Shown piece by piece: positions 8,787-30,910 of a DNA stretch of 64,000 bases. The DNA comes from Topomyia yanbarensis (lineage: Eukaryota > Arthropoda > Insecta > Diptera > Culicidae). The stretch is taken from positions 401,467,037 to 401,531,036 of the forward strand of contig NC_080672.1 in NCBI RefSeq assembly GCF_030247195.1, given 5' to 3'. Position 1 is the first letter of the stretch. Each line of letters opens with the position of its first letter. The position numbers were made by a program, and so were the translations under genes. The notes below the pieces were generated by a model. It made no database searches and was not told where the DNA came from. It worked only from the letters and a program-made list of their open reading frames with translations.

Positions 8787-8945
8787 AAAACCTTACACAA
8801 GAGTTTGTCTTCATATCTCGTCCTGAGCAGAAGCAAAAAATCGTCCTGCGCAAGTGAAACAGTCAATTCTACCTAAAAATCAATCGGTGCCTATCACACA
8901 AGCAGTCCATATAATAATAGCCTATACCTACTGTGCGATTTAGTG

Positions 8946-9962
8946 ATGAGTGACGGTGCCCAGCAAAAAGCAACACAGATGCGGCCGAACTGTGTTGCTG
9001 TTGATTTTTCAAAATGCCCCGTAAGACCAGCCATTCGGGAAGTGGAACAATTATTAAAAGTGCAGATGGAACTCAATCTGGCTGAAGTGAAAACCCTACA
9101 AATGCATCATATCAAACATTGCGTGCTGATTTCGTTCAACAACATTAACCAAGCTGAGTCATTCGCCTCGCGAAACAACATGCAGCACACCGCCGAATGC
9201 GGCAATGTTAAATATAGCATTCCCGTATACATCGAGAACGGCGCCGTAGAAGTTCGGGTCCATGATTTGGCTACGCGTATCCCTGACGGCGCGATTAAAA
9301 AATGCTTGCAAAAATACGGAGAAGTAGATTCCGTTACACATGATACATGGAGGAATTTTTTCCCGGGCATCCCTAACGGTGTTCGTGTGGTAAGAATGCG
9401 TGTGACCAAGCCAATTCCCTCTTACTTAAGCTTCACAGTGTTAGGAAGGGACGATGCTCTCATTCATCAGACATCACTAGTCACGTACCCAGGGCAAATT
9501 CCTACGTGCCAGTTCTGCACGAAGAAGCTACACCTCGGAAAACCTTGCGTAGAAACTGTTAAGGAAAACTCAAATCCAACTGAAATCAGCACACAACCAT
9601 CTTACGCTAAACCACTAACAGCTGCCAAACCAGCTTCTCCGGATCAAGAAGCAACAAACATGAATTCTACAACGATCGCGTTTAATGTCTCTAAGCCAAC
9701 AACCAGCAACAACAACAATGAAGCGAAATCAGAAGAGAACGGACACACAATAGCGATCCATACGATTAAAGCACAAACCAGAACAACCGATCGTGAACAG
9801 CATGCGAGTAGCACAGATGAGGATATGGACGAGTACGACAACGAGAAAGAAGGCAGACCAAATGACCCTCAAGATTCGGCGAACAACTTTTCACCGCCAA
9901 GGAAACGAATCTCAACACGCAGCAGCAAGCTGCGTCAACAAGATGGTACGAGTAAAAAATAA
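8946..9962 (+). CDS. LINE ORF1 (gag-like) RNA-binding protein of gag-only element A
   Basis: This is an intact 338-residue ORF1/gag-like protein, the only protein encoded by element A. I chose the ATG at 8946 because it starts MSDGAQQK, like MTESRQQN in copy B. An RRM-like block lies around residues 15-75 (HCVLISFNN is an RNP1-like strand). A second conserved block at about 90-160 contains VHDLATR, DTWRNFFPGI and PIPSYL. A single zinc knuckle CX2CX4HX4C has C188, C191, H196 and C201. The C-terminal third is low-complexity (T/N/S-rich), then acidic (STDEDMDEYDNEKE), and ends with SPPRKRIS, which could be a nuclear signal. Such proteins bind element RNA into RNPs. Identity to copy B is roughly half by eye, yet both frames are open. 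Confidence 0.85.
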   Translation: MSDGAQQKATQMRPNCVAVDFSKCPVRPAIREVEQLLKVQMELNLAEVKTLQMHHIKHCVLISFNNINQAESFASRNNMQHTAECGNVKYSIPVYIENGAVEVRVHDLATRIPDGAIKKCLQKYGEVDSVTHDTWRNFFPGIPNGVRVVRMRVTKPIPSYLSFTVLGRDDALIHQTSLVTYPGQIPTCQFCTKKLHLGKPCVETVKENSNPTEISTQPSYAKPLTAAKPASPDQEATNMNSTTIAFNVSKPTTSNNNNEAKSEENGHTIAIHTIKAQTRTTDREQHASSTDEDMDEYDNEKEGRPNDPQDSANNFSPPRKRISTRSSKLRQQDGTSKK

Positions 9963-10012
9963 ATGCAGTTAAACTCTTTATTTTTACATATTGTAAAAAA
10001 TTAAAAGATGTC

Positions 10013-10053
10013 CGGCTCAGTTATGCTAACGCGTTGAGCCGTGTCAAATAAAC
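10013..10053 (+). other. 3'-terminal hairpin and tail of gag-only element A
   Basis: CGGCTCA (10013-10019) pairs with TGAGCCG (10035-10041) around a loop holding GCTAACGC. TCAAATAAAC and the A run follow. The same design, with other stem sequences, ends copies B, D and E and the I-clade LINE at 54789-57410. It is probably the RT recognition site. Confidence 0.65.
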
Positions 10054-10076
10054 AGAGAAAAAAAAACCTTTCACAA

Positions 10077-11319
10077 CCCCCCTTAAGTTCCGACACGATT
10101 TAGACGATTTTTCCGTATTCAACTTTTTGCGTCATTTTGCCAAGTCATCTGTCCAGTCTCAACTTTTACAACTCATACGCTTTGCATATATGTTCTATCA
10201 CTAAGAATTAAGCGACAATTTGTTCTACAGTGGAAATGCTAATCGTCCAAGATCCGATGGAAAATTATAAATAGTAAAACAATATAAGCAAGCTTCTATA
10301 TCATTTAAATAACGATCATAATGAGAACATTTGTAGCAGATTGTTTGCCGTCATAGTGGTACTTAGATTGTAAGGCATGGCTTTATTTACAATCTTTTAT
10401 TTAATCTTAGTTTGAATTCTTTCGAAAGCAGTAAAAACATAACAAAACTTCCATTTTCTTGTGTTCTTTGTGAGAAGATATAACTAGAAAAGGGTACAAA
10501 TTGTGGTTTTATATTCTTTTCTTTTCTTCTTGTTAGACTAACTAAAAATTGTGGGTAAATTATACAGCTTTACTTATTTTGATAGCCATAAGTAAACTAA
10601 CAAACGAAAACAATTTTTATTTAATGCAGCTTTGTATCCAATTAAAAAATTTCGTTCTACAGTCTGTTTCAAAATTATTCGACTTTTGCTAACCTGCAAT
10701 ATAACTCTTTGACATGGTATTTTCAAAGGAGCGTGCAACACCTTATAGATAGAACGATAAAGAATATCAAAAAGATCACATTTAAAACTCGATTATACCT
10801 GTTTTTCGTACGGGATAAAACTTGATTACTTGCCCTCATATGGTTTGTGTGCAACATGGTCCATAATATTCCACATAAAGGTCGAAAAGTTGATTCAAAT
10901 TATTGAGATGTATGCAAGAGGAACATGGCGCCTCTTTACACTGTTTTCGTTTGGCTTCAGGATGCAGCCATTTCAGCGATAACAGATACTAACGTCTTAG
11001 ACCGAACTAAACTCGGGCCCAAAATCAAAGATAGTACCGTGCATCGGTACCAATTAGCTTCAAGCTTACCGCTATAAGAGGCACAAATTTCATTCTAGTT
11101 TAAATTAGCAATTAAGGCGTTATTAAGCATAAAGACAGTAGGCATAATGAACGTTGGGTATAAAGACATTGGGCATAATAGACGATTGCACAGTGGTCTA
11201 AAACGTCGTAAAAATGAATTTAATTCACTAGAGGCCAATCCATCAAATATATTCTCAACAGGGCACAGTGGTTTTCGTGCGATCTATTAATTACGCCTAA
11301 ATCGGTAAATTTGGATCAA
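10077..11319. other. No gene; AT-rich unassigned DNA
   Basis: No coding region or paired repeat is supported. CACAGTGG occurs at about 11201 and 11273 as well as at the start of the next element. These may be solitary ends of the same MITE family. Confidence 0.3.
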
Positions 11320-11324
11320 TGACG

Positions 11325-12178
11325 CACAGTGGCGGGTCTTTAAACAAAAGTCGGACAAAACCTCAAATGTTACCTAATTTGGCTGAAAATCACAATTTAA
11401 GCTAATTTTGAGGTGCTGAGCTCATTTTTGATGTCAAAAGTCGTAAAATATTAAATGCATTTTTCCATACAGTGTCATTGAACCTTTCTTATAACTATGA
11501 TCCCGTTTTCATGATAGATTTTCGGTTACTGTTCACCAATGTCAGCAATATCATAAAAAATGAAGAACACTACTTTAAATCCATTGTATAACGTGTTGGT
11601 TTACTGTAGATTGTCTAACTATTTTACACAAAACAACATGCGCTCCATATCAGAAACATAGCTTCAAAATCTCCTTAAAAAATTTGCGCACCTAGGCGCA
11701 GAACGAGACCATGATATTCGAAAAGTAGAGGTTAATTCCCATAGAATGTATACTATGTGACCGTTCCGAAATATTTCCGAAATTTGTACAGAATACATTA
11801 GTGAAAAAAGTATTTTTGATCTGACCCCCTCAAACATATTTAAACTAAAAAGTCAAAGTTCCAAGTAAATTTGCCGAATGTATTTTATTCGCTAACCAAG
11901 TTCTTTCGTTCGTCTACACAATAAAACTAGTTGTGCTAAAATCGGACCAAAATCAAAAGAGCAACATGTATTTGAAGTGAACAGAGCAATGGTGGTTTCG
12001 GAAATGAAAATCATTAAAAAGTCCGGACTTTGCTACGTTTAAACTCATGTTAAAAATCGTGTTCTTATCCAATGATCATAAAATTTTGAATATACATCAT
12101 TCAAATTTAGGAAAAATATAAATTATCAATATTTCAAAAATAAATTTTTGAGGTTTTGGCCAGCTTCCAGCCACTGTG
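11325..12178. mobile_element. Transib-like non-autonomous DNA transposon
   Basis: The ends are CACAGTGGCGGG... (11325) and the reverse complement CACAGTGGCTGG... (12178), both followed inside by AAAACCTCAAA. A 5-bp duplication TGACG flanks the element (11320-11324 and 12179-12183). A CACWGTG-type terminus with a 5-bp TSD is characteristic of Transib, the superfamily related to RAG1. The 854-bp interior has no transposase frame, so it would need a helper. Another 5-bp-TSD superfamily is possible. Confidence 0.55.
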
Positions 12179-12393
12179 TGACGTCTTGGTAGGAATTTGC
12201 ATACACTATAACCCCTTTCATATGGTTTTATTATTTTATTGATTAATCTTCCTAAAAGTGAGATATATTTACCAACTTTCTTGCATGCGCATATTAAAAT
12301 CATGTCTTCGGAAAAGTTTGAGGTTTTGCGGTAGTTTTATAGCCACTCGTAAAACGAAGATTGTACTTGTAGCGTGCTATAAAACTTCAATTA

Positions 12394-12621
12394 TTACTTG
12401 GGTAAGTCTTTTTTTATAGCGGCGTAACTCGCTTTAGCATTTATGGACGTCGTTTGTGAGAGCACTGTATGTATGTAAGCGGGACATGTCGAGAGATCAT
12501 GTAAGCTCTCCTCACAGTAGTGACAACTTTCAGCATTCTCACTGCAAAAACCATGCCCAAGACTCCCTTCGCATTCGGCACACCTGGTTTTATTGCAACA
12601 ATAGGTCGTTGTGTGTCTCAA
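12394..12621 (-). pseudogene. Gag zinc-knuckle fragment of another LINE
   Basis: A 75-codon minus-strand frame contains CAECEGSLGHGFC and then CHYCEESLHDLSTCPAY. The second is a clean CX2CX4HX4C knuckle; the first is irregular. The end (NAKASYAAIKK) resembles the C-terminus of LINE ORF1 proteins. It lacks everything upstream and downstream, so it is a fragment. It differs from the gag of copies A and B. An LTR-element gag is a less likely alternative. Confidence 0.5.
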
Positions 12622-12782
12622 TTACTTTCTTGTAGTGCAATTTATGACCTACGATACAAAAAGGCGAACATGTAGAGGAAACTTGTGGAAGACGACGTAA
12701 TTTGGCAATCCCTAACCAGTGAACGCCACTCGATGGAAGTCTGAATGAACATATGGTTTAGTCCCGTCTTATATGACTGATC

Positions 12783-12985
12783 CTGAATGCAATCGCTTGC
12801 AATCCAAAATTTTCATTGGCGGGAGCAGGGGGTTTTTGAATCAGCGAATCGCGTATTCCAGAAAAAACACGCATATCGAACTTCAATCAGAGACTACGCC
12901 ATTTATCTATACTCTTTGGTCGGGTACGTAAACACGGTACTGCTTTGCAACGATATTGTCTCCAGCAATGTCATTTGTTAGCTTT
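12783..12985 (+). repeat. Dispersed repeat, copy 1 of 3
   Basis: The phrase running from TGAATGCAATCGC through CAGAGACTACGCCATTTAT to GGGTACGTAAACACGG recurs in diverged form at about 26985-27200 and 40700-40850, all on the plus strand. The translations of the first two resemble each other weakly (FHW..GVFESANRV versus YHW..RVFKSANHV), so it may be an old coding fragment. Family unknown. Confidence 0.4.
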
Positions 12986-13655
12986 AACCTGAAAACCTTT
13001 AGGTTTTAGCCTAAAGCAAGCAAACAATACTGCTGGAGATTAGATTGTCTGGGCCCTTTAGGTCTTTTAATATCATAAGGATTATAAGTTTCAACTTAGG
13101 GCTGGATTACAAACGCTCCGACCGACTCCAAATGGCTAATCGCAGTCTTGGATGACGAATCTTGTGCGACATCTATCTCGCAATCAAAACTTCGTTTTCA
13201 AAAAAAACCGTTTTAAGCACGGATCTAGAGGTCGGAACAAATTAGACACTTAAAGGATACAGATTGCGTAACAGGAATTATGGATAATGTAAAAATTAAG
13301 AACGAATCAGGGGACAGAAAATCAGAAATGGGGCTCCATTGAAAAAAAAATCATAAAGCAAATAAAAATGTTGCGTTCAACAACCGCTTTTAAGAGGGGA
13401 TGTCGATATGTACTATAACTTCCTATAACTTTTTTCTGTCAAGAAAAAATTAAGACTTAATTGATATGATCTAATAATTTAGAAAAATAAATATAGACAA
13501 ATTAAACAGTTTTATGAGTATCAGCTCGTTTAGCTCTTTTCTCGTATCTATAGCATAAAACAATAACCCAAGACAATCCAAGCTAGTAATAAGAAACACT
13601 CCGTTCCTCGTTTAACTCTGATAAGTCTTCAATATCAAACCCATAACCAATCCAT
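12986..13655. other. No gene recognised
   Basis: AT-rich sequence with a small perfect stem (cctttaggtttt.agcctaaag, about 12995-13017). Nothing else supported. Confidence 0.3.
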
Positions 13656-13659
13656 TCAT

Positions 13660-14095
13660 GATAGTACAATAGTAAAAGCAAGAGCAGGAGTAGATGTAAG
13701 AATAAAAGCGAGTGCAAGGGAGAATGAAAAAGCAATCGTAAGAGTAAGCGAAAGAACAAATATAATGATAATAACAAGGGCAAGAACAATAGCAAGAGTA
13801 AGATTAAAAGAAGGAGCAAGACCAAATACGAAAGTTAAAATGAAAGTAATGCAGAAATATAAAGAAAGAGTAATTACAAGAACAATACTAAAAATGCGAA
13901 CTAGAGCAAGATCAAGAGAAACAGCAAAGGCAAGAGTAAAAATAACAGAAAGAGAAAACAAGCACAATAGTAAGAATAAGAACAAACCCGAATACTTGAG
14001 TTAAAATTGGAACAAAATTAACAGTGAGGAAAAATACAAAATGAATAAAAAAATAAGAGAAAGAATAAGAGTAAAAGCAAGATCAAAAACACAAC
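13660..14095. repeat. Degenerate purine-rich minisatellite
   Basis: About 435 bases of irregular AAGAR/GCAAGAGTAA-type units with one strand almost purely purine plus occasional T/C. Open frames through it on both strands are artefacts of the low complexity. Confidence 0.75.
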
Positions 14096-14196
14096 ACAAT
14101 TACGATTCTGCAAAGCATGCGTAACTTAGCAGAATCATGATTAGAGCTTCCATTTCCCGGAGGTTTCCGGCTTCCCACAATTCGGGAAATTAATTA

Positions 14197-14449
14197 GGAG
14201 CCATTTATAAATTTCGTAACGCAAAAATTGTTCAAAGTTGACTCCCCCTCCTCCCATGTAACAAATTGTCACAAATTTTGTTATCCCCCCACCCCTATGA
14301 CGTAATTAATTCCTTAAAAAATGTTTTCTTCAATAAAAACATGTTACGTAACGTTCTAGCCTGCTCCCCCTCCCCCTTGTATCACGACATGTGACAATTT
14401 GTCGTAGCCCCTCCCTCGTAAAAGCGTTACGTAGTTTAGGAATGGCCCT
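14197..14449. mobile_element. TA-flanked MITE inside the outer hAT element
   Basis: The left end GGAGCCATTTATAAATTTCG and the reverse complement of the right end AGGGCCATTCCTAAACTACG form imperfect inverted repeats of about 26 bp ending in CGTAACGC. Both sides carry TA (14195-14196, 14450-14451). C-rich blocks lie inside. This resembles the GGGCCATTCA...CGTAACGC MITEs common in insect genomes. The insertion splits the left arm of the outer hAT. Confidence 0.7.
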
Positions 14450-15134
14450 TAGTGATGTCCCGGGAAATCACGGGTTCCCGGGAATACGAAAAATAAAATA
14501 AAATCTTGAAAACCAAAGCGATCGATTGCGTACATAACTGTGCTAGAAAGGGCTCTCAGATATCTATCTCATGGACTATAAATTATTGAATCATTCAATA
14601 ACTTGTCACTAAATTTATTCAATGTCAATTTCTTTTGAGCGATTTTTCTAGGATATATAACCTAAATTGGAGAAACACGATTGCGATTAAGGCGATATAC
14701 AGAACGTAGCTGATTGAGCTGAAATTGAGTATAGTATCGTTTAGTCAAAATAGGATCTGCACCTCTCCGTATAAGGATTAAATCAAAATTAATCAGATGG
14801 TGCAACAACTGTGGAACGAGAAAGGAAGTCTGTTGATTTCCCGTTTATATTTGGGCGAGTATCCGGGACTGCGCGAACCTAACGTAAAAGAGTTTAAAAG
14901 TTCAGGATCAGTGGCGTAGCCAGAAATTTGGTTTGGGTTTGATGAAAATCGTAAATTTTTCGAAAATGCTTCAATATTATGTAAATTTGATAAAATATTG
15001 AATGTTCAGAAAGAAAAACAGTTCATCTGTTACCATTCCATTCTACAAACACCACGTTACGAAGAATTAAGAAGAAAAGTCGGATCAGAACAATCGGTCA
15101 AAGCTTACGTAACGAAAAAAGGACTATGATTGAA

Positions 15135-16314
15135 AACTTGGCACATCGAACTGCAAGTCACTTTGCTTCCCTGGGTTCGAACGAATCCTACACGATGAGC
15201 CGAAAACTCGCAACTTGAAAACCGTAGGATTGTAGGAACTTTGCTTGGCGGGTCAGAATTTGTGGAAAAGCGGGCATCGAGCGGTTACATTGTATTAGAG
15301 CGACGGCACAACAAACGAGTTGGGAATCCGGATGTGTCTGGATCAGTGGCCATTTCTACAACTACAGCATCGTCAACGTGCACTGCTCTCACGATGCGTG
15401 ATCCGAAAACGATAAAGAAGGATTTTACGTGCATTTGGAGCCTGCGGCAGAACGTAAAGCGTCTCATCAGCGACATGAATGCCACCATTGACATCACCTG
15501 CTTAACAAACTGAGAGCTAAATCGACCACGTTCTAATGAACGGATGATTCTTCTCCGACATCACAAATGTTCGCACTTTCCGCAGTGCGAATATCGATTC
15601 AGAATCCCTTCAGGAAGATCGGTATACTGAAGCGATGGAGCATCTGTAAAGTTACGAAAATTCTACGAAAAGGTAAAAGGTCGCTCGAGCAAAGGCTATG
15701 TGCCACAGGCCGACATATGAATAGATACTAATGGAAACCTTCTCACGACCGAGTGTGAGCTGATTGATAAGTGTATTATGACGAACATCGAAATAGCAGT
15801 GGACGACGAGAGTATCGCAAGAATCAGCCTGGGGACATGCGTAGCCGACGATAGATTTCCAGCGCCGGATCTACCTAAGATTTATGAGGAGATCGGACGG
15901 TTGAGGACTGCAAAAGCCACTGGCAATGATCAACTGCCATGTGAGCTGCTGAAACATGGAAAAGAGGCGTTGGTTAGAGCATTCCACTGGGTGGTTTTGA
16001 AGGTCTGGAAGAAACAGATTTTACCAAAGGATTGGATGGAGGAAGTAGTATGCCTAAGCTGACCAACTCTGACGAAAAAATCCGTACACTATGAAAACCG
16101 TTTGCCTGAGCGTGATGAACGATTTCGCTTCGTTGCGGTATGGTGTACGGATTTTTTCGTCAGAGTTGGTCAGCTTAAGTATGCCCCATCTATAAAAAGG
16201 GTATTAAGCGGGATTGCGGGGTCTTCGTGCCCTGCGAAGAGAGAAGCAGCCATGGACCGAGTGAAATGGAGACAACTTCTTGATACAGCAAAGGACAACG
16301 CTGCCTTAGACTGA
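15135..16314 (+). pseudogene. RTE-type LINE relic, endonuclease plus RT ends
   Basis: Frames broken by stops give, in order: SNESYTMSRKLAT (endonuclease start); HFYNYSIVNVHCSHDA; VKRLISDMNATI (normally GDMNAxxG); FSDITNVRTFRSANIDS (before the SDH motif); FYEKVKGRSSKGYVPQA; then LPKIYEEIGRLRTAKATGND and QLPCELLKHGKEALVRAFHW of the RT start. After a MITE at 16055-16177 the RT resumes as PIYKKGIKRDCG. It then jumps to AAMDRVKWRQLLDTAKD, which fits the RTE C-terminus. The catalytic RT core is deleted. Orientation and motif order fit RTE (JAM1-like) elements. Dead copy. Confidence 0.75.
16055..16177. mobile_element. 123-bp hAT-type MITE with perfect 35-bp arms
   Basis: Bases 16055-16089 and 16143-16177 are perfect reverse complements, beginning TAAGCTGACCAACTCTGACG. 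The 8-bp duplication AGTATGCC flanks it (16047-16054, 16178-16185). Conceptual removal of the insert and one duplicate restores the RT motif PIYKKG of the surrounding RTE relic, which proves both boundaries. Superfamily is hAT or P-like from TSD size. Confidence 0.92.
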
Positions 16315-18949
16315 TTGGTAACTAAATTATTTAAATGAAGGTTTAGCAAAAACTTTTCCAATATAAAACAACACATCTTTAGATATATTCATTTTAGTCA
16401 TAAATCCTTCTAGATTTCTAATCATGGAAAATCAACTCTTCAAAAACATAGTAAGAGACTTGATATCCTCAGCAAAGTTTTTGCGAATGTCATTTAAAAT
16501 ATCTTTATTGAAGATATGAACGCTCTATGTATGTAGCATATCGAGATATAAATCGGTATTTACGAAATTATTCTTAAATCCAGTTTTCTTCAATGTTACT
16601 GTAAGCTTCAGAGACACATGGCTTGGAAAAAATGTTTATTTTATTGTTTATTAATAGCAGAAGCGATTGACCGTATACAGAAATATCAGAATAATTGATT
16701 TTGAAGGTTCACTTTCGCAAATAGCAAATATATCACGATACCCTGAATATGTAGAACATTCATGTCTTCAGCCACGTTATTTGTAATAAAATTCTCGAAA
16801 ACTTTACTGACGGCACCAAGTTTTTCAAGACTAAATTAGTTTGAAGAATTAATGCATCCATCTGGGAGGATTATTCACCAAAATTATTTTACCAGAAGAT
16901 GCTTTACGATGCAAAATTCTTCGAAAACACTAAACTTCAAAAGCTGACTGTTTCGAAACTGTATGATATAAATATATGTAAAAACTGTTTTCGAGCATTT
17001 ATTTTACTTTTCTTTGCTATTAAAGTTCGAGTCCTTGTATACGAAATTGTATTACGCCATTCAATTCAGTACTCAAATGTACATTATTAATAGTCACTAA
17101 CTTGATTTTTCAATTTTTCGTTATTTCTAATCCTACTAAGTGGCTATTCAAACAATTGATAGTACAAAAGAAAATCAAATACTCGTAAAAACTGATCCTG
17201 GCCTACTAGAGCCCAACGTAAAATCCCTCAGTTTCTATGTGGATATTTCCATGCAAATATTTTTTTTATATTGACATGATTTGTCAATTATAAGCTCCTC
17301 ACTAAGGGTTAAAAAATCTTTTTCCCACAATTTACCAAAAGTCCCAACGGTGTTTAAAACATTAAGTTCTATATGTCATGATCAGATAATAAGCTACCAA
17401 AATTATTAAATATTTTTTAAATTAAACTGGTCATCACTAATATTTTTTTTTTTCAATTCAATTCCCTCCCCCTGGCTACGCCACTGTTCAGGATATTTGA
17501 TAAACTCAGTGATCTGTACATCTTTTAAATCGTTTCTCCAAAAACTTGTGCACTGCATGCTTAATTGTATGCATAATTCATGATAAAAGTGATATTAAAT
17601 TCCCGGCCTTCCACACATTGGTTGATAAACCGACCAAATATTTTTGAACACATTCTATTTATAGTTGTTGTATGCGACTAACCCACTACAGCTATATTCG
17701 CTGTATGCGACTAATAATTATTATTTATGAAGACAACCTCAAATGTGCGTGATATTGCTATAATAGGTCTTTGGATGTACGGTAGCGCTATCACCTTCCA
17801 TTTTTAGAGCTAAACAGCTTTACATCGATAGATGTGATAAATATATGTATAAGAGAATACACACAAATTGTTTTACTAAAAATTTTGCTGATCGGTGGGA
17901 GGTAAATTGTATACATGCACGCACACAGAAGATATTGACCTCAAACTTTCTAGTCAACAAATTTAGCGCGACGGCTGCTATTTCACAAATTTTTCAATTT
18001 TTATTTAGTTCAAGTGTATTCAAGTTCTTATCCCCGACGTATTGTTTCTCGTATGAGTGACTATAATTGCACTTTGTTAATAAATATAAAAACAATATTG
18101 GGGGTTAGGTAAGATCACTTTGGAAGTATTGAAATGAATTTATTAACAATTTATTTTATCGTAAAATAGAATAATGTAAAAACAACGGCTTTTGTCGTTG
18201 AACCGAAACTGTCCTTATTATTATAGCGTTTGCGGTGAGCACAATCTTTCTGCTTCAATGCATTGATCTATGTTTGTTTCAGGATTTTTTTGAATGGAAA
18301 TTATCTTTTTCATGTCCTCAATTTTTGAAACAAAAATTAGTCGACATTTTCGAGAAATGCCTTTTCTATAACATATTTCTGTTTGCAAAACCCTTCGATG
18401 ACGGTCTAGCTATTACAATAAGAACGATCAATCTGTTTATGAGTTGCGGAAATCGCTATAATACGGAAAGGTTTCTGGGCAACGATATTTTCTATCCTAG
18501 CCGATACTTTCTATGGAATTTCTTTTGAAGCACATAAGTCTTTTGAAACAAACATTGATAATCTTTTTCCCGAAATTCTCGAGTCCCGAAATCCCGGGAT
18601 TCCCGGGAAATAAATTGCCGGGATGAAAGCTCTAATCGTGATTGTGTATTTCTACACATTGTCAATGAAATTTTATCGTCATCTTGCGTTATTACTCACT
18701 CGCTCAGTTCCTTCCATCACGAACCTGGCTGAATCATATAATAAACAAAAGCGTAATTGAATAGTTTTTTAAGTGTCGCAATGACATCCCATCGTTCAAA
18801 ACAAGAACCCAGGCACGTAGCCAGAGGGGGGGCTAGGGGGCTAAAGCCCCCCCCCCGAAATTTTTCAAAAATAAATTTAAAAAACCGGTGACTTTTAACA
18901 AAACTTGTTGCTTATTTGGTTTGAACAAATTATTGAGAAAAAGTTAAAG

Positions 18950-19729
18950 AAGGCTATTTCTAACCACCGAAGGCAATGGTCACGAAATTCAGTGTGCTTT
19001 ATGCTTTTGCTCGAGCCAGTGCGAAGCGAACAACAAAAAAGTAACTTTTATATTGTGTGCCTTGTCTGAAGAATACAAGAGACTGTTACTTTAATTGTAG
19101 CTGTAATAATCTGTCGAGATTAGTGATTAGCAGAAGCAAGAATTGGTGCTCCAGCCAAATGCGGTGATTATAAAATTATTGATCATTCGCATCCTGAAGG
19201 TGTAAATAGAGATTAGACTTTCGGAAACCGGCTCTATCCAGTTCTACCATGGAAGGCATTTAGCGCTCAACAAATTAGTGCAGACGAAACCATTCATTTC
19301 GCACAACTTAAAGCACAAGGTTGTGTGTGACAATGCTATAATTAAGATCCTTCTGTATATGGACTATGAGAAAATGAATGTTCCGCTACAAGATCGGATA
19401 CCGCTTACTCGCAGATTAATGTCACATTTGGGAGAAATGGAATCTATTTGATAGGGCAATTATTGAGGGCGAAAAGCAAGGAAGATATTTGCGAACATAA
19501 AGGCAGCAACTACGATGATGACACGGAAATGTACAATAGCGAGATAGAAATGAACTACTCCCCCCCAAGACATAGTTGGTAAGGAAAAAAAATATTTCCT
19601 CGCCTCGTAAACAGGTTTCCACGTGCAATGGCTAAGCGCTTGCGCGAGATCTGTAGGACAACCACATAAACTCGTTATATTATTTTTATTGTTTACATAA
19701 GGAAATATATAAAAGACCCACGACCCAGT
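18950..19729 (+). pseudogene. Gag-only retroposon, decayed copy C
   Basis: DNA aligns collinearly with copy B. The leader begins at the same point (TATTTCTAACCACCGAAGG versus TATTCTCAACCACCAAAGG). The block around 'catttcgca.aacttaaa' matches residues near SQNNLKH, 'agaaatggaatctatt' matches GELESI, and the C-terminal and 3' UTR blocks (ttattgtttacat, aaaagacccacg) follow. About 400 bases of gag are deleted and the 3' hairpin is lost. No ORF2 sequence is present between gag and 3' UTR. The shared 5' start with copy B supports it as the real element start. Confidence 0.8.
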
Positions 19730-20875: not shown

Positions 20876-21060
20876 GTATGTAATTGTGTATATGTGGGTA
20901 TGTATGTATACATGTATGGACAATGCGTATATGTATGTAGGTATTTGTATATGTATGTGTGTATGAATGCATGTGTATATTTTTTATGTGTGCATGTGTG
21001 TGTTTATGTATGCATATATGTGTATGTGTATATGTGTGTATATGTACATATAAATGTTTA
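20865..21060. repeat. GTATGTATG-type microsatellite
   Basis: Irregular GTAT/GTGTATAT units over about 195 bases. Frames through it are low-complexity artefacts. Confidence 0.85.
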
Positions 21061-21705: not shown

Positions 21706-21732
21706 GTTAACACACACACACACACACACAGT
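21706..21732. repeat. (CA)n microsatellite
   Basis: About 13 CA units immediately before the right copy of the 35-bp direct repeat. Confidence 0.9.
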
Positions 21733-21762
21733 TTTACAGGAAACGGATAATTTGCTGTAATT

Positions 21763-23160
21763 TAAAACAGACAACTCTAAAAGAAAGCCTCGGCAAATTA
21801 GGTGCAAGTGCGATGTGTTCTCTTCCATGTGTCGGAAGCAAGTGATGCTGAAATTATTATCTATGTTTATAGTCTCTAGTTATATTGGTGTCATCAATGT
21901 TATATTTACCAAATTTTATGTAAATTAGAAGCATTGAGTAATCAGTGCTAAGTAATTTTCTTTCGATTTGTGAATAGATTCTGAGCAGTTTCGCTCAGTA
22001 GATTAAATTCTGGGTAGTTTCCATTAGTAGATTAAATCATTGAAATATATATTTGACATTGTCCAAAACCCCACGAATTCCGAAATAAAACCTTCAAATA
22101 AATAAATAAAACCAAAATGTTCAAATATAATATTTACTTAATCTAGGTAATCTTCTCAAGTTATAACGGTTTTGCAAGATTGTCAAAAGTCAATAGAGCT
22201 AAGGCATTCTTGCTTTGTAGTGAAATCAGTAGTTTTTGCACTCACTTTACATTTTGACTTTTACTATAGTTTTAGGGATCTAGGAAAATCAGTCTACGAT
22301 ATTTTTAATTCATAAGTACAATGATATAAAAAGTACCTAAAAAGAATCAACTTAAATAGATAAAAAGATAGTTATTCTGAGTTGCCTGATAATGTTGTCG
22401 AAGATAGTCTTTAACCCATTACCTATGAGAGTCAAATGAAAAAAAACATGTGTTTTTTTCAGGATTGTTTTGATTACGACATGATCAGTATCATTTAAAT
22501 TGAAAATTTCATAAAGTCGAGTTAACGCAAACTTCGGATGAAGTCAAAGAGCTAGTAATAGAAGAAAGAAACCTGATCATGAAAATAGGAGTTGAACCTA
22601 TTTTCTGCATCTACAAATCGCCTGCCTTATCAGAATATTTGAAGCAAATTTCGACATTCACTTTGTTCGGACATTCTTTGCAACGGTAAACTTTGATTTC
22701 ACACTGATATATTCCTATTCATGGGGACAACCTTGACGTTGGTTTCGTTCTTCTGATTAGCAAATGCGTGTAAAGTTTCATGAGACGGGTTTTTGGATAT
22801 TTTTCTACTCATTCCAATTTAGCGTCTTCTACAAATTGTAAAGGTGTATCGAATGTGTAGCATTTTCAAGCAGCGTAGCATGCAGCGTAGCATTTTCAAG
22901 CAGCCCTTAATACTTTGAGCTCTTGACTATTCATTTTTGTAACTAGAGAAATTTCTAACTTGTAAATCAAAAATAATCAAATTTAATTCGTCGATGCACT
23001 ATAGCCTTTCTTGTAACAGGCAACATATTATTAGAGTTTTTAGTGTCTATTGTCTTATTTTTGGAATTGTTTTCACTAAGAACTTTTCATAATTACGTTC
23101 AGTTTCCAGTGATTGTTTCAAGTCATCAGAATTAATACATTTATGCAATAATTTTTAAGC
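21763..23160. other. No gene; right part of the hAT element
   Basis: AT-rich sequence with a small doubled phrase (gcagcgtagcattttcaagcag, about 22869-22905). No transposase motif recognised. Confidence 0.35.
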
Positions 23161-23201
23161 CCCTCCCGAAACAAAATCCTGGCTACGGGCCTGCAAGAAC
23201 C

Positions 23202-24960
23202 TACCAGTTTTTCGCCGGGCTTTAACATTAGATCGTATGTGACGGAACTATCTGCTTGCTCCTTTACAGTTTCTTATAGCTTTTAGTGAGAGGGTTTTCC
23301 GTTCACACCCATATAAGTGTAGCTAGATTCATTGCTAACAACTCACAGCCAAACACTTGTCGCCGTACGCGGAATCAATGTCGCTGGCTAGGTTTAGACG
23401 CACCGTTTTTGACGTCATACTTGAGCGTTGTAGGCTGTGCCAACGATCGAACTGTGGTTCACTTGATTATTTTTGGACCATATGAGAATGAATGATAAAA
23501 CGATTTACCTATGAAAAACCAACTGTCTCATGATAGCTGCTTGATGAAGATCAAGTTCCGCAACGGTATATATTTAGAATCAAGGCTTCGTTTATGTGAT
23601 TCTCAGCACACTTTTTTGCCACATACAAATCCCGTTCAATTTGCACCCATAGTGCATCCATAATGTCACTGCCAACAGTATATCACCATAAACTTGAACC
23701 CCTTCACCCATCGACACCCATTACTAAACCCACCCGCGGTGGTAGACTAAAGACACTCCATTGCGTGTTGCTGTGCCGTATGTCATACCTACCTACATAC
23801 ATTGTAGTCGTCTGCTAAACCACAAACGACCCTTATGCGGCGTCTAGCACTCCTTCCCTCGCACGCGGTATGACCAAAGCACGGAACACGATAACTTACA
23901 GTTGATCCAGCGTCGTCGGCCGCTCTCTGCTGCGAAATTTGAGAAATAAAAAAAACTTTCGGTCCGACTCTCAGCCAGCCGTCATCAGACAGAGCTTTGC
24001 GCTGCGCTGCGGGTCGATCGGCTAAACTCACAGCGATTTGCTCAGCAAGCAACACGCGGTTGTATGCCATCAGCCACAGCACACAGTACCTACCCGATGG
24101 GGGATGGAGGTGAATTTTATTTTTCAATGTAAGGTAACCCTGGCCTGCTATTGAAATTTAAAAGTGTGTTAAGTTTAAATTTTTGCCGCTCCGCCGATCC
24201 CGCTGTCAGCACACTCAGCCGCAACAGCGCTTGCCGCTAGACTTCAGCCCAACCAGACGCGAGCGGCTGTTCGTTCGGTGATCGCCAATTGCAACCGTGA
24301 AACTGAGCTCTATCTCGTGTGGCTGTGGCTGTTTTTATGGTGTGTTGGTAGGCGTCCTGTGTATGCATGAGCTTGGTCCGATGAATGGGAGATGCCTTGA
24401 GCACGCGTCGATTTGTTCGCTGGCGTGGTGACGCGACGACGCCGCTCGCACTTCGGTTGCGTTTCGCTGTTGATTGGTGGAAATTATGCGCGGAGTCCGC
24501 GCTCTGCCTTGTGTTTGCATTGTGGCTTTTCGTGATGAGCCTCGTTCTTTTCCGGGGACCTAAGAGTGGGTGGGTATGGGATGGCGAGGAAGGGGCTGAA
24601 AATTAGTGCTTTTTGAAAGTGAGTGTTTTTTGTTTGCTGGGTGATGAAACAGTTTTTTTGTGGTTTGGGTTTTGGTTTTTCGTGTTCCAATTCAACGCTT
24701 ATTATGTATAATTGGTTGTACATGAAACACAGCTGAGATATGAAGGTTTTGAAAATTCAATGCATAATGGATACGCTGAAGAATAGGACCGAGCAGCGCG
24801 AGCCTGGTAGAGATGGATTCTGTTAGTTTCTGGTGAATAATGGGTATTGTTCTGATCTATTATTCGCTGAGAGCTACATAGTTCTACTATCTGGCACATT
24901 TTCAGAAAACGACACGTACACAAAGGTGCTAAAGGGGATGCAGAATATTTCCGGGTCATA
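23202..24960. other. No gene; unique GC-richer island
   Basis: Non-repetitive, GC-richer sequence, especially 23700-24540. The open frame at 24385-24606 and the minus frames at 23789-24127 and 24335-24520 have no recognisable domain. It may be host intron, untranslated or regulatory DNA. Confidence 0.35.
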
Positions 24961-25693
24961 CACGTAGAAAAAATAGTGTAATTGCAAACAAATTTCTCTT
25001 TTTAGGCATTTGTTTACATTTATACCCACAATTTACGACAAACGACTGGGGAAATTTACCATAAGAACAAATTGCTTGCTAAACCATCACTTTGCTGCAA
25101 TTTTTCGGTAAAAAATGATAGGTACTCTTTACGAGAATCCTCCATTTCTTGGTTTGTATATCATTGTGATCATGGTTATGTTCTGTAGTGAAAGATACAC
25201 ATAAGTCACTTTTTACGCCAATCATTTTAACAATGCTTCTTGCATTCTCGATGCAGAAATTCCTGAATATCTTTTCATATTTCGGAAGTGACTGAATTTC
25301 TACAATCGTGGCTTCCTCAACTCTTTCATTTCAGAATCGTTTGCTTTCGAAGCTTTAGATTCTTAAATTTTACAGCTTATTGATCACAAAATTCGTGGTT
25401 TGATAATCTAACCGATTCTTAACTACTGATCTTTTAACATTTAAAAATACATAATTTCCGATGCAAATCTTTGGAATGATCATACAAACGAAAATTCCAT
25501 AATGTCATAATGCTTATGGTTCAAATTCACCCCCACTGCTTGGTATTTTAATAATGGTTTGAATGGGTTCAACTCATGAAAACACCGTCACCATGGTCCG
25601 CATGATCTTATTTAAAAACCATATTCATATGTATTTATGGATTTTTGAGACCATTTCATAGTGTGTTGATGGTTGTGAAATTTGGCGCGGACA
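24961..25693. other. No gene recognised
   Basis: AT-rich DNA without supported coding or structured repeats. Confidence 0.3.
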
Positions 25694-25942
25694 ATATGGT
25701 CGATGTTAAGTCAGACCGGACTAAGCGACAAAATATTGATTTCGAGAAAAACGAGTTAAGAGTTTGAATCGTAGCATCCTTTACATTATGATTAATTTTT
25801 GCCATAATTCTTGTTTATTGTATCGTATTTCAAATCTGTGAAAAGTCGAATGTAGCTGACGATATTTTTTATCCAGTGCTATTATTATCTCATTTTTTGA
25901 TGCTTTGCGACCTAGTCCGGTTTGACTTAACACCGACCATAT
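25694..25942. mobile_element. MITE with ATATGGTCG...ACCGGACTA arms
   Basis: Left ATATGGTCGATGTTAAGTCA and, inverted, ATATGGTCGGTGTTAAGTCA at the right, both continuing into ACCGGACTA, form imperfect inverted repeats of about 30 bp. The interior is non-coding. A clear target duplication was not resolved. Confidence 0.65.
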
Positions 25943-25956
25943 CCATGGTATTTTAT

Positions 25957-26478
25957 GGGGTTGTGTGGTGTTTTAGAGCTATGGTGTCTTCGGCATAATT
26001 ATTGCATGGCATCTAGCGCATGATTTGATCATTTCCTATAAGTTCGAAATTTAGTCGCTATGGCGGCGCTGTTATCAACTTTTTAATGGATCGCGATAGG
26101 TCTCTACGATAAAGTTGTATGTTAGGTAATTATAAGTATATCTTGTAAAGATACTAACTTTGTAAGACCTGCAAATTTTGAAATATGGTGCATTTTTAAG
26201 AACATAATCTGTAAATTAAATTTTTAACCAAAACATGCTCTATCTCGAAACATACAGAACCTACAAAGTTTGCATTTTCAGAAGATATATTTAAAATGAT
26301 AGGACCCACAACTTTCTCGAAGACGCCATATTTGTATCTAGCTTTATTAAAAAGTTGATAACCATAGCGACTGAATTCCGAACTAGTATGATTCAACCAA
26401 ATAAAGGGCCAGGTTCCATACAGCAACTTTTCCGAAGATACCATAACTCTTTAACGTAAGATACAACGTACAACGCAA
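25957..26478. mobile_element. MITE with long (>100 bp) imperfect arms
   Basis: The left arm (…TTTTAGAGCTATGGTGTCTT… through TTTAGTCGCTATGG… at about 26066) and the inverted right arm (…GTTAAAGAGTTATGGTATCT… through ATTCAGTCGCTATGG) match over more than 100 bases. The whole element is about 520 bp and non-coding. It lies 14 bp from the preceding MITE. Confidence 0.65.
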
Positions 26479-26984
26479 TCCAACTAAAAACAGTGTTATT
26501 TCGAGTTCACCTATACGTGAGCTATAACATAACATTTACTGATAACGAATCTCGGAAAATCAACGATAAAACTCAAATTTCCATAAGACACAACGTGGGT
26601 TTACCCCCTTTCGGACGCCAGCTAGTACTGGGGTTACCTCCATGGTCAACTTTGACTGCTAATAGCAAAAAATCTAAATATTGTTTTCAAATTTCTCAAA
26701 TGGCAGTACACGTGGATTAATTAGAACTATGAAAAAATGCAAAAATGTAGATTTCGGAAAAAATGTGGGTTAGTCCCTTTTGGACACCATCCATTCAATT
26801 AGTATAGTTAATGATAACAAGACGAACTGATAGACGGCCCTTATCAATAAGCAGGTAGTTAGGTAGAGATAGAAAGATGGACGCCCCCTTTGTTTTCAGT
26901 TCTTTCATTACTGTTAGGTAGAGAAAAAACTGGCGAAAGCCCCTCCAAATAAAAGTTTTAGGTAACATATGTCCTCATCTCGTC
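26479..26984. other. No gene; short duplicated phrase
   Basis: AACGTGGGTTTACCCCCTTT (about 26590) and ATGTGGGTTAGTCCCTTTTG (about 26762) are diverged direct repeats about 170 bases apart, suggesting an old tandem duplication. No coding signal. Confidence 0.35.
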
Positions 26985-27200
26985 AGCTGCAACGGATGCT
27001 GATTACAAACCTTTGCAATTATCACTGGCTGAAACGGAGAGTTTTTAAATCAGCCAACCACGTGTGTCAGCAAATCCACGCAATTCAAACTCGAATCGGG
27101 GACAACCCCTTCAATTTCAACCCGGTTAGCATGTGCATATACTCTGTATTCCTTCGTAAAAGGCCCGTAGCCAACAATTTAATTTGCATACTTCAAACTA
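26985..27200 (+). repeat. Dispersed repeat, copy 2 of 3
   Basis: Resembles 12783-12985 and 40700-40850, with the shared order 'atgc..att', 'tcagc.aa', 'cacgca', 'aatc.g.gac' and 'atact.tgt'. Diverged and non-coding now. Confidence 0.35.
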
Positions 27201-28099
27201 TTTACCACCACCCAAAAAAAAGTGGTAAAAGATCGACATCCACCTCATTTTGAGGTGAACCATTGTCAAAGGAAGTCATTTTTGTAAGGGCCTATTGCCA
27301 AGGGCGCGTTAATAAGAGAGTCTAGAAAGGGGAAGGTAATTTGATAGCGGTACTTATCTTTTTATAACGGCATCCAGACAGCTTACACGATTAGACACAA
27401 GATGACTACCACTGCTCCGCGGGTCGAATAACGGTTAACGCGCACACACAAAGAAGAAAAAATTCCTATGCCTCGAAGAGGCGTAGAACTTTCAATATAA
27501 CCTTGAAAGCGGATTAGCTACCTTTGCTATATAGCGTTACACAGCACGGACTGGAAAAAACGTCTACATGCTCCGAGAGTCACTGCGCCAATTTTTGAAT
27601 TTTTTTTTTTTTTTGAGTTAAGTTGGTGGAATCAGTTTTTCTTTATTCGTATGTCTATATGACGCTGCCTCGTGTTGTGTACTTCAAATAATGTGAAATA
27701 CATTCTCCAATGGTTTGGCCTTTCTCAATAAAAAGGTATTGCAATTGCTCTGAACGCTGACTTTTTAATGGAGTCCCGGAGGGCCGAGTGACATATACCA
27801 TTCGATCAATGAATTTACCGACGCACGTGAGTCACCCATTCCCAGCCAGCATAGCATGATGAAAGTCTAACAGCATGCAATTGTCGTTAAAGGTAAATAT
27901 ACAACATTTGCTGCATTTAGACGAGTTTGATTGCATGTTACATGTGTTTTTCTAGTCTACTTCGCTAGTCTGTTTCTTTTGTACTTCTATTGGTTTGCTT
28001 TTCTATTATTGATGTATACCAAAATAGTATCGGTCAATTTATACACTTCTAGTCAAGCTCTTTACATCTTTTTTTCTGCATTCGGCATGTTATGATTCC
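27201..28099. other. No gene; T tract and repeat-like DNA
   Basis: Contains a T run (about 27597-27615) and the phrase 'gagggccgagtgacatataccattcgat' near 27780, which looks like part of a common mosquito interspersed repeat. Boundaries cannot be set from this copy. Confidence 0.35.
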
Positions 28100-29726
28100 T
28101 TTTATTAGTATATCTCTACTATACGCTATCTATACTCATATAGGTACAAACGCTTGGGGCCTTCGTGATAACACAAACGCGACCATGCAATTGCAATAAT
28201 CCACACATATTTACGCCCGCGATTTCGCCTACATGAAAAATCCCGGTAGTTAAGTAAATGTAGCATCTTTAAACTTCCAAACGCGGTCTCAAACATTAAC
28301 CCACCACTCGCACGATCATGAAACGGTCACCTCCGGAAGTCTTACCTCGGTCCTTGCAGTCTGCTCTAATGTCTTCAGTTGAACCAATCAAAAAAGTGAC
28401 GCTCATATTCACTAAACAACACGTTCCATGGTGACATGACCTGGAACTCTAGTGATATGGGGAAACGGACTCTATTGTACCATCTGTACCATAGACTAAA
28501 AATTAAGCATCAGACTCACGGTTCACGCGCGATTGAACAAGTATACACACTACATCATTATAAAATCGAAATTATACTCGCGAAGTCACATCCACGTGAC
28601 AAACACGTTAATATACAAATGCTTGAGCCCTTCTCAACCATCCACGGCACCTACACCCGCGATCTCGTAAACATGATAACATCCCGGTGATAAAGTGAAT
28701 GTCTCAGCTCCTATAAATTTTCAAACGCGGTCTCAAGCGTGAACCTAAAAACTCCCGCGGTCGCACGATGATGAATCGGTCACCTCCGAAAGTTTCTATC
28801 CTTGATATCAGCAGACTAGGTCCATCAATTGGATCAATAAAAAAACTATCCACTGGACACCACGTTACATGGCGACATTACCGAGGACTCTAGTGATATG
28901 GGGTAACTTACTCCCTGTCAGAATGTGAATTGTACACCGAAAACTAACTATCAGAATAAAGGTCCGCGTGACCATCAAAGAACGCACGCGTAAGTAAGGA
29001 TGGCCACACGGTTACAAACTACAGCCTTGTACACGCGAAGTCACATGAACGCGAGCACACGTGACAAAGACGTTAACATACGAACGCTTAAACCCTTCGC
29101 GATGAATAACGCACACCTATGTTCGCGATCGCGCAAACTTAATAACACCCCGGTAATAAGGAGAACGTTTTAGCGCTTACAAAGTTTCAAACGCTGGCTC
29201 AAACTCGAACCTACAAACGTCCGTTTTCGCATGCTCATGAATCGGTTACGTCCGGAAACCATTACTCTCTGTCCTAATAACTTAGGTTCATACATTCAAT
29301 AGGACCAATCAAAAAATAAAGTTCATATCCACTAGACAACATGTTCCATGGCGACATCACCGGGAACTCTAGTGATATGGAAGATCTCACTCATCTTAGC
29401 ATATTAGCCGCACACAAAATACAGTATTAGATTCACGGTCCGCGCGTGATTATCCAAGAACACTCGCGTGTATACGAAAGGCACACGGTTATAAAATATA
29501 ATTTATACACGCGAAGTTACATACACGTTAGCACACGCGACATACAAACGCACACGCGATCGAACACGTTAACGTACAAATGCTGCAGTCTATTCTCAAC
29601 CACCAAAGGCATCAGTCACAATACCAGTGTGCTCTCTGCTGCTACTCAAGCCAGCGAGAGCAGTTGCTTTTTTCTTGTGTGCTTTGTCTGAAGAACAACG
29701 GGAACCATTACTATTATTCTATCAAG

Positions 29727-30737
29727 ATGACTGAGTCTCGACAACAAAATGTGATTCTTCGGGCCAACACGGTGGCCATTGACTTCCGGTCTTTCCGCAT
29801 AAGACCGAGTATTGGTGATATAGATCATTTTCTGAAGGAGAAAATGCAGCTTCGGTTTTCAGACGTCAGTTTCATTCAGTTGGAGCACGTCAGACACGCG
29901 GTGCTGATAACGTTCAACAAATTCGCCCAGGCAAAAAGATTCATTTCGCAAAACAACTTGAAACACGTGCTGGATTGTGTCACCGCTAAAATCAAGATCC
30001 CTGTGTATATGGATAACGGAAACGTGGAAGTCAAATTACATGATTTGGCTACACGTACTTTCAAAGTGGCCATTAAAAGATTCATGTCGTATTTCGGAGA
30101 ACTGGAATCCATTACGGAGGATACGTGGAGGAACTACTTTCCAGGTATTTCAAATGGTGTTTTTGTGGTGAGAATGCGGGTAGACCAACCCATTCCCTCC
30201 TACCTTACCCTGCAGTACACAACAGAAGGGGGTGTTACCATTATACAGCGAACTCTATGTACATATCAAGGACAAACTAACACGTGCCAGTTCTGTGAAC
30301 AAACGGCACATTACGGACAACCCTGCCCAGAAACCGCTAAGAAAAGCTCATCTACAGAAAGAAATACCAACACTCAGTCTCCAATATCATTCCCTGAGCC
30401 ACAAACGTTTGTCAAATTTGTGGCTGCTGTTCAAGCAATAATGACAACTGCGAAAGCCGCGTCAAGTACCACAAACTCAACAGCTAATTCTAGCAATGAG
30501 GGAGCTACTAGCAATGACGGAGAGTTCACGCTCGTGACCCGAAAGGGAAAGAAGTTAGGAATAACACCTGATCGCGAACATCAAGGCAGTAACCCCGATG
30601 ATGACCCGGACATGTGCGAAGACGACAGAAATACAAATAACCCCCATGAAATATTTGACGTGGATGCAAATATTTCCCCGATACGGAAACGGATCTCCGC
30701 GCGCAATGGCAAGTCGCACATACGGGATCGATCTTAG
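29727..30737 (+). CDS. LINE ORF1 (gag-like) RNA-binding protein of gag-only element B
   Basis: An intact 336-residue ORF1 protein. The frame is open from 29580 but the ATG at 29727 (MTESRQQN) is preferred. It aligns with the start of copy A, and 29580-29584 lies in the target duplication outside the element. An RRM-like region has HAVLITFNKF as the RNP1-like strand. A second conserved block carries VKLHDLATR, DTWRNYFPGI and PIPSYL. The knuckle CX2CX4HX4C uses C187, C190, H195 and C200. A linker rich in T/S/N follows, then an acidic stretch (NPDDDPDMCEDD) and SPIRKRIS near the end. About half the residues match copy A. Expected role: binding its RNA for retrotransposition in trans. Expression is unknown. 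Confidence 0.87.
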   Translation: MTESRQQNVILRANTVAIDFRSFRIRPSIGDIDHFLKEKMQLRFSDVSFIQLEHVRHAVLITFNKFAQAKRFISQNNLKHVLDCVTAKIKIPVYMDNGNVEVKLHDLATRTFKVAIKRFMSYFGELESITEDTWRNYFPGISNGVFVVRMRVDQPIPSYLTLQYTTEGGVTIIQRTLCTYQGQTNTCQFCEQTAHYGQPCPETAKKSSSTERNTNTQSPISFPEPQTFVKFVAAVQAIMTTAKAASSTTNSTANSSNEGATSNDGEFTLVTRKGKKLGITPDREHQGSNPDDDPDMCEDDRNTNNPHEIFDVDANISPIRKRISARNGKSHIRDRS

Positions 30738-30786
30738 CATTAATTATTATTTTTATTGTTTACATCATGTAAATATATAAAAGACC

Positions 30787-30829
30787 CACGGCTCCGTGAA
30801 GCTAACGCCTTGAGCCGTGCCAAATAAAC
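30787..30829 (+). other. 3'-terminal hairpin and tail of gag-only element B
   Basis: CACGGCTC (30787-30794) pairs with GAGCCGTG (30812-30819), an 8-bp stem with a loop containing GCTAACGC. CAAATAAACG follows. Same layout as copy A and the I-clade LINE. Confidence 0.65.
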
Positions 30830-30910
30830 GAATTAAAAAAACGTACAAATGCTCGAGCTCTTCGCGATGATACACGCGATCGCGAGTTCCTACGCTCGCA
30901 CTTATCTAAA

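Follow-up and report, generated by a model that had tools for sequence, protein, structure and literature searches.

The stretch of DNA analysed here, which we call the window (64,000 nucleotides; G000:C3:401467037-401531036), belongs to the 1.17-Gb assembly of the mosquito Topomyia yanbarensis. It contains two full-length copies, A and B, of short retroposons without long terminal repeats (non-LTR) that have one open reading frame (ORF), ORF1, encoding a Gag protein, and no ORF2. These Gag-only elements, their relatives elsewhere in the genome, and a long interspersed nuclear element (LINE) that shares their 3' end and may be their helper are the subject of this report. The two copies are laid out as follows.

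8801-10062, forward strand: Gag-only retroposon copy A, full length, flanked by a 14-bp target duplication; 39 other scored genome copies are 95-99% identical to it
8946-9962, forward strand: ORF1 (Gag) of A, 338 amino acids, with tandem RRMs at about residues 10-180, one CCHC knuckle at 188-201 and a low-confidence tail
9507-9548, forward strand: CX2CX4HX4C zinc knuckle of A Gag, read from the translation, its columns nearly invariant in the alignment
10014-10040, forward strand: 3' terminal hairpin of A, with a GGCTC/GAGCC stem and a loop containing GCTAACGC, followed by AAATAAA and an A run
29585-30840, forward strand: Gag-only retroposon copy B, full length; 39 other scored genome copies are 91-96% identical to it
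29727-30737, forward strand: ORF1 (Gag) of B, 336 amino acids counted from the homologous methionine, 40% identical to that of A
30790-30816, forward strand: 3' terminal hairpin of B

Reading both copies bore out the plan given in the original prediction, namely a leader (145 nt in A, 142 nt in B), one ORF1, a 3' untranslated region (UTR), a hairpin, an A run and a target duplication, with no ORF2. The duplications, put at 13-14 bp, are 14 bp in both copies: AAAACCTTACACAA (8787-8800) pairs with AAAACCTTTCACAA (10063-10076) around A with one mismatch, and AACGTACAAATGCT is repeated exactly at 29571-29584 and 30840-30853 around B. The B frame is already open from 29532, upstream of the homologous methionine. 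The single CCHC knuckle is present as one CX2CX4HX4C motif in each Gag, and the description of the two proteins as about half identical was roughly right. No Pfam model reaches its cut-off on either Gag. An AlphaFold2 model of A Gag built with 11 sequences (mean pLDDT 65.5) showed two beta-alpha-beta-beta-alpha-beta-like units, with most blocks of residues 11-200 above 80 and residues 210-338 below 50, so that the region described as RRM-like corresponds to two RRM folds in the model. The best PDB matches of this model in Foldseek were tandem-RRM proteins such as NONO, SFPQ and Sex-lethal, at E values of about 1e-6 to 1e-5 and with global TM-scores that were low. A Gag is thus predicted to consist of two RRMs, one CCHC knuckle and a tail that is probably disordered, and together AlphaFold2, Foldseek and the motif place an RRM upstream of a CCHC knuckle, as in the ORF1 of type-I LINEs.

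Both elements are multicopy, and so are not single-copy chance deletions. DNA searches gave 5781 first-look candidates for A and 6268 for B, and the best 40 scored copies of each, query included, are dispersed across all three large contigs. All 40 A copies and 20 of the 40 B copies were read with 1.5-kb flanks; two of the A copies (L012 and L013) have the same flanks and are one insertion present on two small contigs. Most copies begin at the 5' end of their family (35/40 A at position 1-2, 17/20 B at position 1-4), and target duplications of 9-18 bp flank 33/40 A and 18/20 B copies, against 30 of 2943 control pairs in which flanks of different copies were mismatched. An ORF of at least 334 amino acids is kept in 17/40 A copies (16/39 without the duplicate insertion; one has a shifted start) and 9/20 B copies, and copies differ pairwise by 2.4% on average in A and by 4.0% in B. 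In the genome at large, the GGCTC hairpin pattern has 2280 matches with at most one mismatch (1111 + 1169; reversed control 0), and a 21-mer from the A leader has 627 with at most two mismatches (control 1). Within the first 101 Mb of contig C1, a leader lies 1157-1442 nt upstream of four of four exact A-type tails. The 180 kb of flanks contain 13 further gag copies, one per 13.8 kb, and simple extrapolation gives some 84,000 gag fragments, mostly old, a figure that may be inflated if the flanks of retroposons are themselves enriched in retroposons.

Outside the window there are other Gag-only types, which we call A2, L034, L039 and L048. The L048 element (L048:2747-3880, reverse strand) has an open gag and a clearly distinct 3' hairpin (AGGC..GCCT) and makes a fourth Gag-only type. 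A2 came to light through leaders of the CAC type: of 45 leaders on C1, 39 lack an exact GGCTC tail on their own strand within 12 kb. These leaders were considered as marks of a parent LINE; the only copy fetched (L068) proved to be the Gag-only family A2, its gag 98.6% identical to the annotated protein P0001 and followed by a UTR, a hairpin of its own and an A run. As part of the overall explanation favoured below, A and B probably belong to a diverse clade of non-autonomous non-LTR retroposons of 1.2-1.3 kb.

A and A2 share a leader type and the first 210-240 or so residues of Gag, and their 3' hairpins differ. In 30-residue blocks, A Gag is 80-100% identical to P0001 up to residue 210, 73% identical at 211-240 and 40-70% identical thereafter; in the DNA, dS rises from 0.10 over the 45 codons that start at residue 187 to 1.0 further on. 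The 3' part of A is 73% identical to L004, another gag copy from the flanks. As judged from these alignments, the pattern fits an origin of family A as a mosaic, in which RNAs of two families were joined during reverse transcription, although conversion or uneven sampling could produce it instead.

A profile search with the Gag alignment returned 76 proteins whose named sources are mostly culicine mosquitoes (Topomyia, Malaya, Aedes albopictus, Armigeres and Culex); it also reached distant Gags of corals, ticks and beetles, those of corals and ticks having several knuckles. In a tree of 57 rows (rows shorter than 225 amino acids and named partial rows left out), the Topomyia Gags (A, P0001, B, L034 and L048) form one clade (97/89), with Malaya adjacent (93/75). 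Among sequences from the source labelled 'lgn', the longest contig carrying a Gag has a median of 1217 nt (46 rows; 25 at 1.0-1.3 kb, 6 of at least 2 kb), against 2798 nt for the longest contig carrying the ORF1 of the candidate helper LINE described below (23 rows; none at 1.0-1.3 kb, 19 of at least 2 kb; Mann-Whitney p 3.6e-8; P0075, a coral-type Gag on a contig of 5263 nt, excluded). This suggests that the Gag-only size is general, with the proviso that the compared proteins differ in length. Two annotated proteins call for separate mention. P0013, a Topomyia 'jerky protein homolog-like' protein on a contig of 428,584,394 bases, ends in a stretch 97% identical to A Gag and is an exonised copy or an annotation artefact. 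P0017 (Aedes albopictus LOC134286466) is a gene model that joins a gag of this kind to a stretch that by eye looks like LINE reverse transcriptase (RT); the annotation could be chimeric or nested, or it could point to a gag-ORF2 element.

The window contains five further pieces related to these elements.

3404-4015, reverse strand: L048-type gag in decayed fragments; next on this strand, from about 2961 down, comes an ORF2 remnant, truncated at its 5' end, of a LINE with a different tail
18951-19722, forward strand: copy C, a decayed, internally deleted relative of B, with a gag remnant and then a 3' UTR; hairpin broken; start placed by eye and approximate
54721-54788, forward strand: 3' tail fragment of the Gag-only type, no gag seen, with a hairpin at 54743-54769; insertion target of the LINE at 54789
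54789-57410, forward strand: 5'-truncated copy of the candidate helper LINE, with an RT/RNase H ORF to 56562, a 3' UTR and a hairpin (GGCAC..GTGCC) at 57357-57384
63633-64000, reverse strand: copy D, the 3' part of a decayed relative, with the gag C-terminus, UTR, hairpin and A run, cut by the end of the window

As the original prediction had it, C and D, both decayed, run from gag straight into the 3' UTR. By eye, the LINE at 54789-57410 is flanked by AAATAAACGAATTA at 54775-54788 and 57411-57424; because this 14-bp duplication surrounds the LINE, its position is that of a plain nested insertion, and template jumping between the LINE and the preceding gag tail is ruled out. A long tandem array at 50400-50825 reads as MNQ repeats, and similar AATGAATCA repeats adjoin some Gag-only insertions (L018, L048).

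This LINE belongs to a young and very abundant family: all 74 scored copies, the best 74 of 51,756 first-look candidates, show 98-100% identity, and an open frame of 1239-1242 amino acids is kept in 56 of them, so that Topomyia is probably experiencing, or has very recently experienced, a burst of it. The window copy is 98.5% identical to a full-length element, L067, which has a 383-amino-acid ORF1 with three CCHC knuckles (by eye) and no Pfam hit, an ORF2 with endonuclease, RT and RNase H, a 3' UTR of about 860 nt and a 13-bp duplication. The family is autonomous, about 6.2 kb long, with an ORF2 of 1241 amino acids. A homologue of its ORF1 in Culex tarsalis is labelled 'Putative i-3b cq', and we call the LINE I-clade because of that label, which, rather than an RT tree, is the basis of the assignment.

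The likeness between the Gag-only elements and this LINE is in the last 45 or so nucleotides. None of 3000 shuffles matched the tail of the LINE as well as the tail of A, B or D does, and 6 of 3000 reached the level of L039; the tail of an unrelated LINE did not match the Gag-only tails in the same shuffle test. Random genomic windows had been tried as a control (39 and 52 of 20,000) and were set aside, since the loci used contain the elements' own tails; for the same reason shuffles are the valid control here. We compared 14 tails, nine with gag seen, three standing alone (54743, L046 and L025) and two LINE ends (the window LINE and L018). The outer GGC/GCC stem is fixed in all except L050 and L060, and the inner two stem pairs covary (TA, AT, CG, GT; CG, TA, TG), with 67 of 70 cells pairing in an analysis whose script chose the best-pairing arms and so favours pairing. 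The Gag-only elements thus share a 3' end with a LINE, as some short interspersed nuclear elements (SINEs) do, through a covarying hairpin. No significant match was found between L067 and the gag of A or B, nor any match to their leaders, and a profile comparison of Gag with the ORF1 family of the LINE gave no significant match (2% probability). From these sequence comparisons, the I-type LINE is the likely donor of the enzymes that the Gag-only elements would borrow. The LINE represented by the endonuclease fragment at 2476-3000 on the reverse strand was also considered as helper and rejected, since its copies L064-L066 have no gag match and the tail of L065 does not match. L064 and L065 represent a second LINE type; the two begin at one shared point, about 125 nt ahead of ORF2, no ORF1 was seen in them, and they are possibly ORF2-only LINEs.

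Among the sampled copies that keep their 3' end, gag leads to the tail and not to an ORF2. Six of the 13 further gag copies in the flanks keep their 3' end (L004, L034, L039, L048, L050 and L060), and in all six a UTR, a hairpin and an A-rich end come within about 100 nt after the gag C-terminus. Of the other seven, four of them inspected by eye, some lack the 3' end in the stretch read, and the rest are interrupted or have an unclear end. ORF1 without ORF2 is therefore the state of A, B, L068 and these 3'-complete copies, and no intact gag-plus-ORF2 element was found in the sample. The exception to the claim that gag stands without ORF2 is a pair of decayed remnants beside a truncated ORF2, to which we return below.

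The Gag ORF is under purifying selection in the source lineages. Coding variants private to single copies are near neutral, at 1.02 (A) and 0.87 (B) of the N/S ratio expected from the mutation spectrum, with copy A or B as reference (N, replacement; S, synonymous; L013 included). In the comparison of private with shared variants, for which L013 was dropped and stops were counted as replacements, private N:S in A is 228:75 against 20:24 for variants shared by at least two copies (p 0.00012), in B 176:74 against 29:26 (p 0.017), and pooled 404:149 against 49:50 (p 8e-6). The replacement deficit in shared variants persists among transitions (p 0.016), among transversions (p 0.0003) and at non-CpG sites (p 0.0002). 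Between the subfamilies, a comparison proposed at the outset as a check, A and B differ by dN 0.50 and dS 1.43 overall (dN/dS 0.35) and by dN 0.41 and dS 1.82 in the RRM and CCHC region (dN/dS about 0.23); dS is near saturation.

We read these data, with a probability of roughly two in three, as indicating that the Gag-only elements are SINE-style parasites of a LINE tail that bring their own Gag, the helper being the abundant young I-type LINE with its endonuclease, RT and RNase H. Because Gag shows no homology to the ORF1 of that LINE, the packaging protein would be the elements' own and only the tail borrowed. The unit appears mRNA-like, with a short leader from (TC)AGT, one Gag ORF, a short 3' UTR, the hairpin, AAATAAA and an A tail. 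RNA polymerase II would transcribe it from TCAGT; AGTCA in B and AGAAG in A, at +28 to +32, are presumably DPE-like (downstream promoter element), judged by eye against the consensus. Gag, once translated, would bind or coat its own RNA, the hairpin and A tail would recruit the ORF2 protein of the I-type LINE, and this protein would nick the target and copy the RNA by target-primed reverse transcription. The origin of new families may lie partly in mosaics that combine the 5' part of one family with the 3' part of another.

Several observations weigh against this reading. Only some 45 nt at the 3' end identify the helper, and the hairpin tail of an L018-type LINE also matches weakly (28-38 of 3000 shuffles equal the match for A, B and D, and 1016 of 3000 for L039). 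The hairpins of L048 and A2 differ from the GGCTC type, so that different families may use different helpers, and A2, L034 and L048 are each known from one copy read. B variants common to at least three copies, at 18:9, show no replacement deficit. Choosing copies by score favours full-length, intact ones, and since the copies read are the best-scoring ones, their length and intactness are overstated. Finally, gag and ORF2 do occur together in decayed form. At one locus (L002), a gag remnant is followed on the same strand, 2.2 kb further on, by a truncated L064-type ORF2, with the A copy between them, the single same-strand case among loci with a further gag copy when two LINE ORF2s were used as queries. 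In the window itself, the L048-type gag at 3404-4015 on the reverse strand is followed by about 100 nt of UTR-like sequence and then by the ORF2 remnant, and L062, a locus 365 kb away on the same contig that was picked by its endonuclease match, repeats the arrangement. Such a composite could, from its sequence, be the relic of a gag-ORF2 LINE, and because a decayed gag remnant adjoins a truncated ORF2 remnant in two related loci, an unseen parent LINE may have existed.

That parent is the premise of the alternative that survives best, in which the elements are true half-LINEs, that is, ORF2-deletion derivatives of an autonomous LINE with the same Gag and 3' end that is now rare, unsampled or extinct in Topomyia, the tail likeness reflecting common descent from the parent's 3' end. 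Precedent exists in HAL1, which arose several times from L1 (PMC5753468, available part), and the RRM-then-CCHC plan of Gag is common to the ORF1s of type-I LINEs (PMC4120745, available part); the reach of the gag profile to multi-knuckle coral and tick Gags points the same way, as does the gag remnant beside ORF2 at window 2476-4015 and at L062. These two loci are 84-96% identical in pieces, with common breakpoints and a common inserted repeat, and their ORF2 remnant is of the L064 type and lacks the first part of the endonuclease. L064 and L065, in which the start of the endonuclease is present, have no gag match upstream. Because the loci share breakpoints and inserted repeat and L064 and L065 are without such a gag, we take the composite for the insertion of a truncated LINE into the UTR of a Gag-only element, with later duplication; the tail of the inserted LINE, moreover, does not match. 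Also unfavourable to half-LINEs are the lack of ORF2 in every copy that keeps its 3' end and the distribution of same-source contigs of 1.0-1.3 kb, which hold gag in 25 of 46 rows and the LINE ORF1 in 0 of 23. The original prediction went further and held that the elements must be a selected deletion derivative analogous to HAL1. Descent by loss of ORF2 from the tail-sharing LINE is contradicted, because the three-knuckle ORF1 of L067 is unrelated to Gag and its DNA matches neither the leader nor the gag of A or B; L067 is the only full-length autonomous candidate read, and the hairpin is all that it has in common with them, rather than ORF1 and both ends. We regard half-LINE ancestry, from another and unseen LINE, as unlikely but not remote.

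Two further alternatives can be treated briefly. It is very improbable that Gag is retained because it acts in trans or serves the host, by domestication, say, or by an effect on the helper LINE, whether as help or as interference, and not because it copies its own RNA. Annotation does list some copies as mosquito proteins whose function is unknown, and the selection test responds alike to action in cis and in trans, so that the suggestion that the protein matters for the elements' own mobility is borne out in part, by the selection; selection across dispersed copies of two families is nevertheless what is expected of an element gene, not of a single host gene. Equally improbable, and already disfavoured, is that the ORF is open merely because the copies are young, Gag having no role and the RNA being mobilised like any mRNA or SINE, since the near-neutral private variants and many broken copies that this would explain are set against a clear replacement deficit in shared variants, A and B Gags that still align at 40% identity with dS about 1.4, and homologues predicted in Malaya, Aedes, Armigeres and Culex.

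Extending the SINE-style reading, we suggest more tentatively, at a little less than even odds, that the elements represent a long-lived culicine lineage that is independent of any one LINE, with a selected packaging protein and many families, swapping 3' tails by mosaic joining and so tracking the hairpin of whichever I-type LINE is active. If so, they would be a coding analogue of SINEs, or a two-part satellite system. What LINEs gain from ORF1, when SINEs manage without it, is unclear. Here nature has split a Gag from ORF2, kept it under selection and joined it to the tail of a helper, making it testable what Gag buys an RNA that already has the helper hairpin. The short covarying 3' hairpin is itself a candidate recognition signal of I-type LINEs, and the annotation of mosquito genomes is affected as well, such ORFs being listed as uncharacterized mosquito proteins.

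Among known systems, SINEs are non-coding and have RNA polymerase III heads. A and B resemble them in being short and in having the 3' end as their sole detected likeness to the presumed helper, but differ in encoding a selected Gag and in lacking a non-coding head of the tRNA, 7SL or 5S kind; the window contains no tRNA (ARAGORN, bacterial code setting) and no Rfam family. SINEs that share a LINE 3' end have been described (PMC3747384). HAL1 (half-L1) of mammals is a dispersed, non-autonomous, L1-derived non-LTR element with ORF1 only (PMC5753468), and A and B are like it in having ORF1 without ORF2 and in being multicopy and retroposed, with target duplications and an A tail. The difference is that HAL1 derives from L1, whereas the LINE that shares its tail with A and B carries an ORF1 unrelated to their Gag, and the Gag-only lineage has split into several families. 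HeT-A of Drosophila telomeres likewise encodes Gag and no RT, which is thought to be supplied by another element (PMC5537684, available part), but HeT-A makes up telomeres, whereas A and B copies are dispersed, with target duplications, and not in telomeric arrays. With the mosquito I-clade LINE, A and B share the 3' hairpin with its GCTAACGC loop, AAATAAAC, an A-rich end and duplications of 13-14 bp, and they differ in that the LINE is autonomous and about 6.2 kb long, with a three-knuckle ORF1 and an ORF2 of 1241 amino acids. With type-I ORF1s, the Gags share two RRMs followed by CCHC, but have one knuckle where the type-I subgroups with a stated count have three, and exchange of ORF1 among mosquito LINEs has been proposed (both from the available part of PMC4120745). 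We found no report of Gag-only LINE families in mosquitoes in the open-access literature, most subscription papers lying outside the search. Elements with ORF1 or Gag only are already known from HAL1 and HeT-A; what sets the present elements apart is a selected Gag that is unrelated to the ORF1 of the tail-sharing LINE and that belongs to a diversified clade.

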